DNA of 38,299 nucleotides from a virus: positions 1-38,299 of the IMG/VR virus record IMGVR_UViG_3300035670_000609, one strand, 5' to 3'. Made by a program: the position numbers and the translations under genes. The notes beneath the pieces were generated by a model. It saw only the letters and a list, made by a program, of their open reading frames with translations, had not been told where the DNA came from and did not search any database. This document shows, in pieces, positions 3,435-25,834 of the stretch; the stretch's first letter is position 1, and each line of letters begins with the position of its first letter.

Positions 3435-4045
3435 CCGAGATTCGCGCCCTCCCGCTGCCGCTCACTGTCGAGACACGCGACGACGGCAAGACCGTCATCC
3501 GTGGCATGGCGGCCAAGTACAACACCCGTTCCGTGGATCTCGGTGGGTTTACGGAAGAGATTCGGCCTGGTGCCTTTGACGCCGTGATGCAAAAGGACGG
3601 CCGCAACGTCGTGGGTCTGTACAACCACGACCAGAACTACGTGCTGGGCACCGAGCGAGCCGGCACGCTGCGGCTGGCGGCAACGTCTGAGGGGCTGGCC
3701 TACGAAATCGACCCGCCCGCAACCCGGCAGGACGTCGTCGAACTGATCCGCCGGTCAGATGTCTATGGATCTTCGTTCGCGTTCACGGTGGCCCGAGACG
3801 GCGACGAGTGGACAACCGACGACAATGGGAAGCATCTGCGGTACATCCGCAGCATCGAGGGCTTGTACGACGTCGGCCCGGTGCTCACGCCGGCCTACGG
3901 CGACACCTCGGTGGCGGTTCGCTCACTAGAAAAGCATTTGCAGACGCACCGACCGGCGCTGAAGCTGCCGGCACTTCGACGGGATGCGAAGACCGAGAAG
4001 GCAATTCGGCGTTTCTTGAGGCAGCATGGGCGCAAAGTCGGGTGA
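3431..4045 (+). CDS. Prohead maturation protease (S78/U35 HK97-like)
   Basis: 204 aa serine protease that cleaves capsid N-terminal delta domains during head maturation. Family marks are IRGMAAKYNTRS near the N-terminus, the catalytic histidine in LYNHD (H66) and the catalytic serine in YGSSFAF (S115, with S114 beside it). ATGA overlap with the portal gene. The C-terminal 40 residues are basic and divergent. The HNH gene starts within its last 20 bases, which suggests that gene was inserted at the protease 3' end without breaking it. Confidence 0.9.
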   Translation: MTEIRALPLPLTVETRDDGKTVIRGMAAKYNTRSVDLGGFTEEIRPGAFDAVMQKDGRNVVGLYNHDQNYVLGTERAGTLRLAATSEGLAYEIDPPATRQDVVELIRRSDVYGSSFAFTVARDGDEWTTDDNGKHLRYIRSIEGLYDVGPVLTPAYGDTSVAVRSLEKHLQTHRPALKLPALRRDAKTEKAIRRFLRQHGRKVG

Positions 4046-21201: not shown

Positions 21202-21510
21202 ATGAGCGACTACTACTCGGACAGCGTGACTGACCTTCCGCTGTTTCGCCGCACCGATCCGGTGACGTCCAAGATCGCTGGCACGATGGCCCGCGAGTTC
21301 AAGGGCGACCACGAGCGGCGAATCCTCGAGGCGCTGGCCGCTGGGCCGGGGACCAAGGACGAGATCGCCGTACGCTGCGGCCTGAGCGAGCAGCAGGTGG
21401 CCCGGCGAATGCACGGGCTGGCTCGGGCCGGGCTTGTGGAGGCGACGGGCACGACTAGGCCGAGCGCGAGCGGAAGGCCAGAGCGGGTGTATCGGAGGGT
21501 TTTGGCATGA
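21202..21510 (+). CDS. Winged-helix DNA-binding protein
   Basis: 102 aa from the ATG at 21202 with AAAGGA upstream (an upstream TTG at 21154 is less likely). Residues about 35-90 form a winged helix: HERRILEALAAGPGTKDEIA, then CGLSEQQVARRMHGLARAGL, then a wing with TTRPSASGRPERVYRRV. Similar domains serve as transcription regulators and as phage replication accessory factors. The N-terminal part (LPLFRRTDPVTSKIAG) resembles a stretch found in small phage HTH proteins. Confidence 0.65.
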   Translation: MSDYYSDSVTDLPLFRRTDPVTSKIAGTMAREFKGDHERRILEALAAGPGTKDEIAVRCGLSEQQVARRMHGLARAGLVEATGTTRPSASGRPERVYRRVLA

Positions 21511-21905
21511 GGCCAGACGTTGACGCCTACAACCGTTACATCGCTAGTCACCAGTGGGCATGCAAGCGAGACGCTCGCAAGGAAATCGACGGCCACCGAT
21601 GCCAGACGTGCCTGCACGACGGCACTTTGTGGCGTCTTGAGGTTCACCACAAGACATATGAGCGCCTCGGCAATGAAGACGTTGAGCGTGATTTGGTAAC
21701 GCTCTGCTGCCAGTGCCATGAGGCTGTCACAAGCGTAATCCGGTCTCGTCGGTATGACGGGAAGCCGGTGCCAGTGTGTTTTGTTTCAGATGATTTCATT
21801 TCACGAAAGGATGTGCGATATGGCATGGACGACCTTGACCTACAAGATCACGGGCGACGCTCCGCTGATTATGCACAACGGGGATCTCGCAAACCCGTTG
21901 AGTAA
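21507..21905 (+). CDS. HNH-type nuclease or zinc-finger protein
   Basis: 132 aa, ATGA overlap with the winged-helix gene. CQTC (32-35), LEVHHKTYERLGNE (about 44-57) and LVTLCCQCHEAV (about 63-74) give the CxxC...HH...N...CxxCH layout of HNH nucleases. The C-terminal 50 residues are not part of the fold and overlap the next gene by 86 bases in another frame, so the stop may have drifted. Possible DNA-processing nuclease in the early region. Confidence 0.7.
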   Translation: MRPDVDAYNRYIASHQWACKRDARKEIDGHRCQTCLHDGTLWRLEVHHKTYERLGNEDVERDLVTLCCQCHEAVTSVIRSRRYDGKPVPVCFVSDDFISRKDVRYGMDDLDLQDHGRRSADYAQRGSRKPVE

Positions 21906-22446
21906 GGCCGCCAAGGCTCTCAAGCAGGTGACGAGCAAGAAGAAGAAGACCGACGCCGACTTTGAGCGGATGGCCGAGATTGAGTTTAAGGCCGGTCTCT
22001 ACATCGACGAGGATCGCGGTCCTGTGATACCCGGCGAGAACATCGAGGCCACGATCTACAACGCGGCCAAGATCACCAAGGAGGGAAAGATCGCCAAGTC
22101 GGCGTGCTTTGTGCCGAAGGCTGCCGTGCTGCAGTACAGCGGGCCGCGCGACGCCGATGGTTTGTGGAAGGACGAGCGGTTTCGAGACTGCTCTCCCGCG
22201 AAGATAGGCATGGCCCGTGTTATGCGGACACGGCCAATTTTTGAACAGTGGTCGGCGATTGTGGAAGTCGAGTTTGAGGACTCGGTCGTGAACGAAGACC
22301 AAGTCGATCGCTGGATGCACGCAGCTGGCACGCAGGTCGGGCTTTGCGACTGGCGGCCAAAGCATGGACGTTTCACGGCCGAGAAGGTGGCAAACACGAC
22401 TCCTAAGAAGCGGAAGTCGGCACCGGAGGCTGTCGGCGCGTCATGA
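21820..22446 (+). CDS. Phage protein with RAMP-like IPG motif (weak)
   Basis: 208 aa; ATG 21820 chosen for AAAGGA upstream. The pattern begins LTYKITGDAPLIMHNGDLAN, has a basic stretch (KKKKTD), then RGPVIPGENIEATIYNAAK, FVPKAAVLQYSG, and ends VGLCDWRPKHGRFTAEKV. I recall this plan (GxxPLxMH...iPxxxixxai...vGlGdWRP) from phage proteins of unknown function. The IPGxxIxAxI segment resembles the IPGSSLKG turn of Cas7/RAMP-type RNA-binding folds. That link is a structural guess. The structured repeat array begins about 100 bases after its stop. Confidence 0.55.
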   Translation: MAWTTLTYKITGDAPLIMHNGDLANPLSKAAKALKQVTSKKKKTDADFERMAEIEFKAGLYIDEDRGPVIPGENIEATIYNAAKITKEGKIAKSACFVPKAAVLQYSGPRDADGLWKDERFRDCSPAKIGMARVMRTRPIFEQWSAIVEVEFEDSVVNEDQVDRWMHAAGTQVGLCDWRPKHGRFTAEKVANTTPKKRKSAPEAVGAS

Positions 22447-22552
22447 GACAAAAGAACTGAGGCGTGGTGAGGTCTGGCGATGTGAGGTGGTGCCAGGCAG
22501 GGCGGGGTGAGTTGCGTGTTCTGGCGCGGCGAGGCACCGCAAGATTGTTAAA

Positions 22553-22598
22553 CCACTCTCGTGATAGGCACGGCAGCATCTTCGACGGTGCGGAGTGG
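22553..22598 (+). ncRNA. Three-way-junction unit 1
   Basis: Outer stem CCACTC/GAGTGG (6 bp). Second hairpin CGTG-ATAGG-CACG. Third hairpin GCATC-TTCGAC-GGTGC (one G-U pair). Linkers are T, GCA and G. 46 bases. Confidence 0.7.
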
Positions 22599-22697
22599 GA
22601 TGGAATGAGGTCGGGCATGACATGTTCGGATCTGTTCCGGTGGGATTTGGTTGTGCAAGGCGTGGCAAGTTCCGGCGAGTCCGGGCCCCGCATAAAA

Positions 22698-22743
22698 CCA
22701 CCTACACGGTCGGCGTGGTTGCGGCTTCGATGCCGCAAGGTGG
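22698..22743 (+). ncRNA. Three-way-junction unit 2
   Basis: Outer stem CCACC/GGTGG. The second hairpin is CACG-GTCGG-CGTG, in which both sides are changed relative to the other units so that pairing is kept. Third hairpin TTGCGGC-TTCGAT-GCCGCAA. 46 bases. An extra flanking pair CCGCA/TGCGG is possible. Confidence 0.7.
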
Positions 22744-22818
22744 GATGGATTGCGGCACGTCACGTCGGGGCAAGTTGTGCCACGTCGGGGTCGGTCCTGT
22801 CCTGGCTAGTCATGGAAA

Positions 22819-22863
22819 CCACCATCGTGTTGGCACGGAGGCCGATCAACGCGGCCGTGGTGG
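22819..22863 (+). ncRNA. Three-way-junction unit 3
   Basis: Outer stem CCACCA/TGGTGG, second hairpin CGTG-TTGG-CACG, third hairpin GGCCG-ATCAACG-CGGCC. Linkers T, GA and G. 45 bases. Confidence 0.7.
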
Positions 22864-22931
22864 GATGCACCCAGGCGAGCTGGTGCGAGTCGAGTCGGTG
22901 TGCGGAAAGGCGTGTTGTGTTTTGGCATTGA

Positions 22932-22978
22932 ACCACACCCGTGCAGGCACGGTTCCCGATCAACGCGGGAGGTGTGGT
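22932..22978 (+). ncRNA. Three-way-junction unit 4
   Basis: Outer stem ACCACACC/GGTGTGGT (8 bp), extended by TTGA/TCAA across a 2-base bulge. Second hairpin CGTG-CAGG-CACG. Third hairpin TCCCG-ATCAACG-CGGGA, with the same loop as unit 3 but a different, still fully paired stem. 47 bases. Confidence 0.7.
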
Positions 22979-23076
22979 ATTCAATTTTGGAAGGTCTGGG
23001 TTTGTCACGTTGGGGTAGTTCTTGGTTTGTCACGTTAGTTCGGGCTACGGCATGTTTGGGTCAGGCACGGTTAACG

Positions 23077-23122
23077 CCACCATCGTGATAGGCACGCGTG
23101 CGGATTCGAGGCCGCGTGGTGG
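23077..23122 (+). ncRNA. Three-way-junction unit 5
   Basis: Outer stem CCACCA/TGGTGG, second hairpin CGTG-ATAGG-CACG, third hairpin GCGG-ATTCGAGG-CCGC. Linkers T, CGT and G. 46 bases. It lies 75 bases before the replication-initiator-like gene. Confidence 0.7.
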
Positions 23123-23197
23123 TTTGCACCGAGGAATGGTGCGGCGGGTTGATGTTGGTCATGGCCCGTTTTGTTGAGGCTGGGTAAGGATTTTTTG

Positions 23198-24037
23198 ATG
23201 GCTGGTTCGTGGCTCAAAATGCGGCACGACCTGAACGACGCCCCGGAAATCCGGCGGCTCGCTCGAGCGTGCGGCGTCACCAAGGACGACGTGCTTGGAA
23301 AGCTGTTTCGGGCTTGGAGCTGGTTCGATCGTCACTCGCACAGCGGCCGCGTGGCCGACGAGACCTTAGACCTTGTCGATGAGATAGTTGGCCATTCGGG
23401 GTTTGCCCAGGCACTCGTCAGTGTCGGGTGGCTTGCTGAGGACCAGGCCGGAATCGTCATTCCGAACTGGGACCGGCACAACTCCGAAACCGCCAAGCAG
23501 CGGGCGCTGGATGCAGCCCGCAAGGCGGCGGCCCGCGATGTCGAAACTGTGTCCGGCAAGATGCCGGACATACCGCCGTACCCGTGTCCGGCAAAGACCA
23601 GGACCAGAGAAGACGAGACGAGAGAAGAACTTCCTCCTCTTCCGCGCGAGGGATTTGACCAGGCGGCATGGCAGCAGCTTCGCCGGTCCTGGAACGCCGG
23701 ACCCGGCAAACAGTGGAAGATGCTGAACCCGCCACCGCCGGCCGTTGATCGCCTGTCTGAGGACGATTGGCGCGACGCCTACGAGGCCGGAATCGCCAAG
23801 CTCGCCAAGGTGCGGTTCTTCAAGACTCCCGTAAGCCTTCGCCAGTTTTGCTCCATCGACGATCGGAAAGGGAGATTCCTCGACCGGCTCTTAGGAGGCG
23901 AGTTTGACGACAAGACGGCCGCCGGCCGAGGCGACTTCGCCGACGGCCCGCCGCCACCCAAGGTGTTCACCGGCGAGGTAGCCGAAGCATTTGAACGTAC
24001 CCGTAGAAAGTTAGCAGCCGCCAAGGAGGGCACATGA
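23198..24037 (+). CDS. Phage replication initiator-like protein
   Basis: 279 aa; the ATG at 23198 has TAAGGA seven bases upstream. The N-terminal domain reads SWLKMRHDLNDAPEIRRLAR, then DDVLGKLFRAWSWFDRHSHSG, LVSVGWLAED, IPNWDRHNSETAKQRALDAA. This is the winged-helix pattern of phage replication proteins (O/DnaD-like) that bind the origin. The middle is Pro/charged and probably flexible. The C-terminal part (QQLRRSWNAGPGKQ and on) may contact the host helicase loader. The structured array directly upstream is therefore a candidate origin or regulator. Confidence 0.7.
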   Translation: MAGSWLKMRHDLNDAPEIRRLARACGVTKDDVLGKLFRAWSWFDRHSHSGRVADETLDLVDEIVGHSGFAQALVSVGWLAEDQAGIVIPNWDRHNSETAKQRALDAARKAAARDVETVSGKMPDIPPYPCPAKTRTREDETREELPPLPREGFDQAAWQQLRRSWNAGPGKQWKMLNPPPPAVDRLSEDDWRDAYEAGIAKLAKVRFFKTPVSLRQFCSIDDRKGRFLDRLLGGEFDDKTAAGRGDFADGPPPPKVFTGEVAEAFERTRRKLAAAKEGT

Positions 24038-24282
24038 CCGACACCGCCACGCCAACCGCACCGCCACCGCTCACAGAGCGTCAACGCCAGGTGCTCGACT
24101 TCATCACCGACTTTGCCGACCGCCACGGCTACAACGCCAGCGTTCGCGAGGTGATGCAGTTTCTCAACTGCAAGTCGCCTAACGGCGCGGTGTGCCACAT
24201 CGCGCCGCTGGAGCGGAAAGGCTACATCCGGCGCGAGCCAAACACCGCTCGATCAATCCGACCGATCCGTGAGGTGCTGTAA
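24034..24282 (+). CDS. Stand-alone LexA-type DNA-binding domain
   Basis: 82 aa. Residues about 14-77 match the LexA N-terminal winged helix: LTERQRQVLDFITDFADRHG, then ASVREVMQFLNCKSPNGAVC, then LERKGYIRREPNTARSIRPI. The peptidase half with the cleavage site and Ser-Lys dyad is absent, and the gene ends naturally in a TAATG overlap with the next gene. It could bind SOS-type operators without being cleavable, or act as a phage regulator. Confidence 0.82.
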   Translation: MTDTATPTAPPPLTERQRQVLDFITDFADRHGYNASVREVMQFLNCKSPNGAVCHIAPLERKGYIRREPNTARSIRPIREVL

Positions 24283-24610: not shown

Positions 24611-24786
24611 GCCTCTCCGAGTTCACCTGCATCGCCCTCGGGATGCTTTTCAACGTACTCACGTTTGTCCTCGGCGTTGCCGTGGGCGTGAATGTTTCTG
24701 CCAAGAGAAAGGACTCTCCAGATGACAACCGCTACCGCTACGAAGACGAAGGCTTCCAGCACTACGCTGACGATTCCGAGGACTGA
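24607..24786 (+). CDS. Small single-span membrane protein
   Basis: 59 aa (ATG in ATGA overlap). A hydrophobic helix spans about residues 7-31 (CIALGMLFNVLTFVLGVAVG) and is followed by an acidic, Tyr-rich cytoplasmic-type tail (DDNRYRYEDEGFQHYADDSE). The last 65 bases overlap the start of the sliding-clamp gene. Function unknown. Confidence 0.6.
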   Translation: MSLSEFTCIALGMLFNVLTFVLGVAVGVNVSAKRKDSPDDNRYRYEDEGFQHYADDSED

Positions 24787-25834
24787 GCTGCTCCAGGCGG
24801 TGCAGGCCGCCAGCAAGGCGATTTCGCGTGGCCCGAAGCCCGTCTTGACATACGTCAAGATTGGAAACGGACTTGTCACCGGCACGGACCTCGAGGTGCG
24901 GATTGACGTTGCCATCGGCGAAATGTGCGACCCGTGCCTAGTGCCGGCCGACAGGCTGCTGTCGATCCTCCGGGCCGCCACGGGCGACACCGTGACGCTT
25001 AAAGCCACCGGCAGCGGCGTTGCCATCACGTGTGGCGGCGGCAAGTGGCAGCTGCCTACCGAGGACGTCAACGAGTACCCGACATGGGAACCGGCGGAAA
25101 TGAAACCGGTGTGCCGGCTGCCCGCTGACCAGTTTGCTCGAGCGGTTAGGGCCACCGTGTACGCCACGGACAACGAGACGAGCCGCTACGCCCTCGGCGG
25201 CGTGCTCATCGACGTGACCGGTGGGAATCCGACGTGGGTTGGAACCGACGGCCGGCGAATGGCAACCGTGGAGACCGAGACCGACCAGGCCGTGGACGAC
25301 TCGCAGACCGTGGTGCCGGCCAGGATTCTGCGGATCGCCGCCGGCATGGCTTCTGGTGACGGCAGCGTTCAAGTTGAGGCCAACACCCACGAGTGCCGCC
25401 TTGAGCTGGATGGCGTGACCGTGACCGGCCGGCTCATCGAAGGGCGCTTCCCGAGGTGGCGTGACGTCATGGGCGACCCCGAAGGCTCGGCCAGCGTCGT
25501 GTCTACGGCGGATCTCATCGGTGCTGTCAGGGCTGCCGCCATCGTCACCAGCGAGCAGTCCAAGGGAATCACGCTCAAGTGGGCTGGCGACACTCTGACG
25601 CTGTCGGCGCAGTCGTCGGAGCACGGCGAGAGCCTGGTGAAGTGCCCGATGCTTCAGGCTGGCGACGCCGCTGACACGAAGCTCGACCCGCATTTCCTTG
25701 AGCAGTACCTGGCAAATCTACCGCCAGACGAGGAACCGCAGGTGGACATCTACGTTACGGACGCACAGAGTCGCGTGCTCTTGCGGTGCGGCCCATACTG
25801 CGGCGTCATCATGCCTCTGGCGGGGGACGCATGA
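24722..25834 (+). CDS. dnaN: DNA polymerase sliding clamp (beta subunit)
   Basis: 370 aa, full length for a bacterial clamp. The ATG at 24722 has AAAGGA upstream; an earlier start at 24692 lacks one. Typical marks: TLTIPRTELLQAVQAASKAI at the N-terminus, TGTDLEVRI, RYALGGVLIDV...WVGTDGRRMA at the second-domain start, LIEGRFPRWRDV, and the terminal YCGVIMPLAGD. It forms the ring that tethers polymerase to DNA. No phage polymerase is encoded in this window, so it probably couples the host replicase or other clamp-binding proteins to phage DNA. Confidence 0.92.
   Translation: MTTATATKTKASSTTLTIPRTELLQAVQAASKAISRGPKPVLTYVKIGNGLVTGTDLEVRIDVAIGEMCDPCLVPADRLLSILRAATGDTVTLKATGSGVAITCGGGKWQLPTEDVNEYPTWEPAEMKPVCRLPADQFARAVRATVYATDNETSRYALGGVLIDVTGGNPTWVGTDGRRMATVETETDQAVDDSQTVVPARILRIAAGMASGDGSVQVEANTHECRLELDGVTVTGRLIEGRFPRWRDVMGDPEGSASVVSTADLIGAVRAAAIVTSEQSKGITLKWAGDTLTLSAQSSEHGESLVKCPMLQAGDAADTKLDPHFLEQYLANLPPDEEPQVDIYVTDAQSRVLLRCGPYCGVIMPLAGDA

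Follow-up and report, generated by a model that had tools for sequence, protein, structure and literature searches.

The locus analysed here raises the question of what five structured units, set within 750 bases between the gene of a RAMP-motif protein and a replication initiator-like gene, do for the virus that carries them. The window is the whole of virus record IMGVR_UViG_3300035670_000609 (38,299 nucleotides), and its terminase, portal, head, tape-measure and integrase genes indicate a temperate tailed phage. A sequence-only reading had described the units as a free-standing array, possibly a decoy, a multi-site regulator or an origin, with spacers in between. In our analysis the units are the tails of predicted guide RNAs, alternating with decodable guides, and the supposed spacers are ordered pentamer tracts that carry guide information. 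The locus, which runs on the + strand from an HNH gene through vipr, six tracts alternating with five tails, to the replication initiator gene (Table 1), is very probably a VIPR (Viral Interference Programmable Repeat) system of the phage, the tracts and tails being its predicted guide RNAs (vrRNAs), as judged from sequence and structure modelling. VIPR, which entered the literature only months ago, is a relative and proposed ancestor of CRISPR. In the available text of the VIPR preprint (PMC13142463), a phage RAMP protein is combined with guide RNAs made of YNNGG repeats and a structured tail, one base being skipped in the DNA target.

Table 1. Features of the predicted VIPR locus, in window coordinates
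Feature	Coordinates	Strand	Basis or remark
HNH endonuclease gene, proposed Vipr-accessory (vap)	21507..21905	+	Pfam HNH E=6e-7; homologue directly precedes vipr in most loci of the clade
vipr gene (phrog_4652), RAMP family	21820..22446	+	PDB 36pp E=3e-31; AlphaFold/Foldseek
vrRNA repeat tract 1: 12 YNNGG-type pentamers, 2-nt phase shift, about 4 more	22458..22540	+	pentamer scoring
Tail 1	22553..22598	+	three-way-junction unit
vrRNA repeat tract 2	22606..22690	+	decodes to primase-helicase motif R-I-M-R-L-P-G-F of other phages
Tail 2	22698..22743	+	three-way-junction unit
vrRNA repeat tract 3	22751..22815	+	pentamer scoring
Tail 3	22819..22863	+	three-way-junction unit
vrRNA repeat tract 4	22871..22930	+	pentamer scoring
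Tail 4	22933..22977	+	three-way-junction unit
vrRNA repeat tract 5	22986..23070	+	pentamer scoring
Tail 5, third stem irregular	23077..23122	+	three-way-junction unit
vrRNA repeat tract 6, no tail 3′ of the tract	23130..23189	+	decodes to start codon region of other phages' replication initiator
Phage's own replication initiation gene (phrog_2509), start MAGSWLKMRHD	23198..24037	+	poor match to tract 6

The RAMP protein that the sequence-only reading had placed upstream of the units proved to be Vipr, both by sequence (PDB 36pp, 'SUSP1 Vipr protein', E=3e-31) and by fold: its AlphaFold model (pLDDT 87) retrieved Csm3/Cas7-like RAMP subunits in Foldseek (E=4e-5, probability 1.0). The encoding ORF opens at 21754, and the conserved start is the ATG at 21820. 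The initiator gene expected downstream was likewise recovered, as phrog_2509. An HNH gene directly 5′ of vipr is common to most loci of the clade and is absent from SUSP1-like, Pseudomonas-phage and actinobacterial loci. The same anatomy, with up to seven tails each, was found in related contigs (L020-L031), and nearly every Vipr in bacterial genomes is adjoined by pentamer tracts. The locus adds to VIPR a clade that is carried by phages and has a nuclease gene. No similar DNA was found among the annotated phages searched, and no strong terminator or sigma-70 promoter within the array. A protein-coding reading of 22447-23197 was rejected: an intact gene across this interval was not seen in relatives, which carry unit arrays in its place, and matches to the long ORF found here were only fragmentary and displaced.

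Several further observations were made in passing. A protein consisting only of a LexA DNA-binding domain (24034-24282) and a phage-encoded sliding clamp (DnaN; 24692-25834) follow the initiator, a set also found in related phages. The closest genomic Vipr-HNH pairs include a Chloroflexota bin and a Brevundimonas bin, which does not name the host of the phage. In the Felixounavirus phage wV8 (L040), the record's DR_4 repeats (2262-2319 and 3655-3712) coincide with tails of vrRNAs on either side of an unannotated vipr (gp95). Unannotated VIPR loci with vrRNA tracts were also found in Gordonia phage MakoManhole, Pseudomonas phages Medea1 and LESphi2, and Mycobacterium phage LittleE (gp34) (L041, L042, L043 and L044).

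We analysed the stretches between and around the tails as candidate guide sequence. The six YNNG(G/T) pentamer tracts scored 22-42 bits, compared with maxima of 12-18 in 30 shuffles of the whole window. Over 83 window pentamers the composition was Y (97%), N, N, G (88%), followed by G (58%) or T (35%). Compared with the 9-16 YNNGG repeats that characterize a vrRNA, the tracts hold 12-17 pentamers with a slightly relaxed fifth base. A tail directly follows nearly every tract (tracts 1-5 here, not tract 6), and related arrays usually have N tails and N+1 tracts; the tail-less last tract is the one with the clearest target. Either the tails are separators, or the tail on the 5′ side also works, or the last guide has another kind of 3′ end. 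Other arrangements were seen elsewhere. At L033:5474-5910 and L035:926-1320 nothing but an AA, placed every 10-18 repeats, divides the tracts and structured tails are absent; these may be the staggered arrays named in the accessible preprint text (PMC13142463). At L047:3307-3775 a short conserved motif, ATGCAATCATCCTTTCA, stands between tracts in place of a structured tail.

The tracts were decoded by the published rule, as given in the available text of the preprint (PMC13142463), in which the NN dinucleotides are joined with one base skipped between them. Tract 6 reads AT GC GG GA TG AT CC TT GA TG AA, and the initiator gene of L117 and L131, two phages without an adjacent vipr, starts ATG GCC GGT GAA TGG ATT CCC GTT GAC TGC AAC. 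The two agree at 21 of 22 bases (22 of 24 once the pentamer before these is included), the matched bases always falling on codon positions 1 and 2 and the skipped base on the third position. Tract 6 also matched the initiator starts of L175 (22/24) and L176 (21/24); all four stretches had been retrieved through the tail pattern and not through the initiator. With a skip of one base the score was 20.5, compared with 14.5 for no skip and 13.5 for a skip of two; the highest-scoring of 72 shuffles reached 17. At its start, the phage's own initiator gene was a far poorer match. The last tracts of two related arrays, L024 and L025, decode to relatives' initiator starts (18/20 and 20/22), and none of 400 shuffles attained the values of tract 6, L024 or L025. 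The last tract of L024 matches its own initiator at 16/20 and may serve self-regulation.

Tract 2 matched the primase-helicase gene (RepB-primase/DnaB-type) of L137 and L139 at 16 of 16 bases over eight codons, again with the skipped base at the third codon position. By itself tract 2 scored 16.5, not above the shuffle maximum, and its support comes from sharing this site with a related guide of L022 (27/30 and 26/30). When the 16-base gapped pattern was scanned over viral contigs, 50 of the 54 stretches matched carry the primase-helicase gene, a count that shows where the address points and does not amount to 50 independent confirmations, because the motif is conserved in the family. The window itself lacks a primase-helicase gene of this type. 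Decoding gave no target for tracts 1, 3, 4 and 5. For tracts 6 and 2, exact patterns of 10 codons proved too strict and had zero matches, and four matches to an 8-codon pattern over the diverged half of tract 2 were rejected as chance. Weaker decodes (L026:3927, L022:7488 and others) were left out of the count, being near the shuffle range or lacking context. The decoding rule is thereby checked independently on uncultivated phages, with rivals' replication genes as targets. We propose that each guide would consist of a pentamer tract, as a rule with a 3′ structured tail, whose NN dinucleotides would spell the DNA target with one base skipped between them. With two guides addressed to the replication genes of other phages, the system most likely keeps related, presumably competing phages from replicating, and their DNA would perhaps be cut by the HNH protein.

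The tails themselves agree closely with what had been read from the letters. The five three-way-junction units lie where they had been placed, all on the + strand and 45-46 nt long, with all the stems, swaps and loops described; only the reported spacing of 114-141 was slightly off, the start-to-start distances being 145, 121, 114 and 144. A descriptor of the architecture matched four times in 760 kb of shuffled sequence, compared with five times in the 750 bases here and as many as seven times in related arrays. The compensatory change and selection on RNA structure claimed earlier were upheld across 73 model matches (47 distinct): the three helices were 92% paired, whereas shuffles gave 71% and slid helices 32-50%, and both sides had changed in 130 cells, compared with 36 expected. 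Once the register of the third stem had been set correctly, pairing in 43 distinct tails reached 100% in the outer stem, 100% in the second and 99.5% in the third; these included 13 G-U and no A-C pairs, which indicates that the functional molecule is the + strand RNA. Relative to genes, 72 of the 73 matches lie on one strand. The junction shifts among 7+5, 6+6 and 5+7 pairs, the 3′ strand remains 12 nt long in 42 of the 43 tails, and the outer and third stems, which we infer to stack coaxially, together have at least 12 pairs in 38. Loop 1 (D-like) is NN(N)GG, ending in GG in 41 of 43, and loop 2 (T-like) is mostly UUCRAN or AUCRACG. The flanks are also constrained, with AA on the 5′ side, (G/A)AU on the 3′ side and the next pentamer starting at about +8. 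As had been supposed, no Rfam family matched the tails, at either gathering or permissive E-values.

The elbow of tRNA is marked by G18 and G19 together with U55 and C56. By their sequence, the tails look like mimics of this elbow without an anticodon arm, that is, like shortened tRNAs: the 12-bp coaxial acceptor/T stack is present at the level of pairing, and the UUCRANY T-loop and the GG of the D-loop at the level of sequence. An anticodon arm and a CCA end are absent, and neither ARAGORN nor Rfam called the tails as tRNA. The 12-bp acceptor/T-type stack is the length measured by RNase P, and RNase Z grips the elbow (PMC4919913, PMC4810234). Actinobacterial VIPR tails (LittleE, MakoManhole and Mycobacterium sp.) have loops of the form UUCGANU, a D-like loop with GG, 11-12 pairs and no D stem; they follow the same plan, with a more open tRNA likeness. 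The available text of the preprint (PMC13142463) makes no mention of a tRNA likeness of VIPR tails, and the tRNA-like tail looks new.

The pattern of tail 1 matched 77 viral stretches, and 67 of these matches had no adjacent vipr or tracts (L114-L188). These solo elements, nearly all single, lie near replication genes, with a stop codon upstream and AAUGGAAAGGAGG...AUG downstream. They stand in 5′ leaders of genes (for example L117:3910, L163:1297 and L167:4341), where AAU and then usually AAAGGAGG...ATG follow. Five solo copies (L119:5814, L159:7272(-), L170:933(-), L178:6328(-) and L179:771(-), positions on the named strand) have one more hairpin, which stands between the D-like arm and the T-like arm at the position of the anticodon arm and shows compensatory change between copies. 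Since these copies have no adjacent vipr, the tail element should have a role without Vipr, and cutting of the transcript would be the simplest role common to the array and the solo settings.

The type of tail suggests how VIPR arrays are processed. The array would be cut at its tails into single guides by RNase Z, RNase P or both, the host's tRNA-maturation enzymes, or by an equivalent nuclease; we propose such tRNA-style processing tentatively, at slightly less than even chances. If it is true, VIPR can do without a processing protein of its own such as Cas6. Slightly more guarded is the wider proposal, also short of even chances, that natural RNA-guided arrays are punctuated by tRNA mimics, the phage taking over host tRNA-maturation enzymes to cut its guides by means of an element that, in relatives lacking an adjacent vipr, occurs by itself in a replication-gene leader, and that actinobacterial VIPRs do likewise with a tmRNA-like version. 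Against tRNA-style processing, a cut by RNase P 5′ of the tail would part the guide from its tail, tract 6 has no tail, and the tails have no CCA end; the conserved RAU directly 3′ of the tails is not accounted for by tRNA mimicry. A possible but somewhat doubtful alternative keeps the same VIPR locus and makes the tail a 3′ handle whose binding by Vipr, or by the HNH protein, begins or ends assembly, the tRNA likeness reflecting only a stable fold and other nucleases doing the processing. The tails do directly follow nearly every tract, and the available preprint text describes a structured tail at the 3′ end of the type II vrRNA, likens it to the repeat handle of crRNA, and states that vrRNAs are purified together with Vipr (PMC13142463). 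However, a handle for Vipr does not fit the 67 solo matches, and tract 6 has a target yet no tail.

The leaders could instead hold the original function, the tail being a cis-acting RNA of early phage transcripts that was copied into the VIPR array. It might act in translation control or in antitermination, by analogy with put-like elements. The solo copies occupy one syntenic place near replication genes, with a stop codon before them and a ribosome-binding site and start codon after them; this would suit such a role, as would an array without strong terminator or sigma-70 promoter; we nevertheless consider it unlikely, because it leaves unexplained both the five to seven copies alternating with guides and the fixed 12-bp stack with D- and T-type loops. 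Elbow features in several copies would also be expected of an RNA decoy titrating a host tRNA-binding defence or modification enzyme, but the units alternate with decodable guides beside vipr and the solo form is a single copy in a leader, which makes this very improbable. A DNA-level element, either a replication origin or iterons read as cruciforms, would fit the place beside the initiator gene but is hardly credible given the G-U pairs without A-C pairs on the + strand, the shared orientation of 72 of the 73 matches, and the guide code between the units.

Compared with the type II VIPR of Escherichia phage SUSP1, as described in the available text of the preprint (bioRxiv 2026.04.26.720920, PMC13142463), the locus likewise has a phage-carried Vipr homologue, an array of vrRNAs (about 100 nt each in SUSP1) with YNNGG-type repeats followed by a structured tail, and decoding with a 1-nt skip at the codon wobble position, directed to other mobile elements. 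It differs in that the HNH gene stands upstream of vipr, whereas the accessory gene is downstream in SUSP1-like loci; in a fifth repeat base that is G or T instead of the G of YNNGG; in a three-way-junction tail with tRNA-elbow features in place of a pseudoknot; and in having N tails with N+1 tracts. With VIPR types III-V, which have nuclease or helicase accessory genes in the same text, it shares a predicted nuclease beside vipr, but types III and V are enriched in defence islands and this locus is phage-borne (PMC13142463). With tRNA and the tRNA-like domain of tmRNA, the tails share the 12-bp acceptor/T stack, the T-type loop, the D-type loop with GG and the order of D then T arm; they differ in lacking an anticodon arm (an unrelated hairpin stands there in the five solo copies) and CCA, in having mostly a 6-nt T-type loop, and in receiving no ARAGORN or Rfam call. 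Synthetic polycistronic tRNA-gRNA arrays likewise separate guides by tRNA-like modules; those arrays are engineered with full tRNAs, whereas the present one is natural and would, on our proposal, be processed at its tails.
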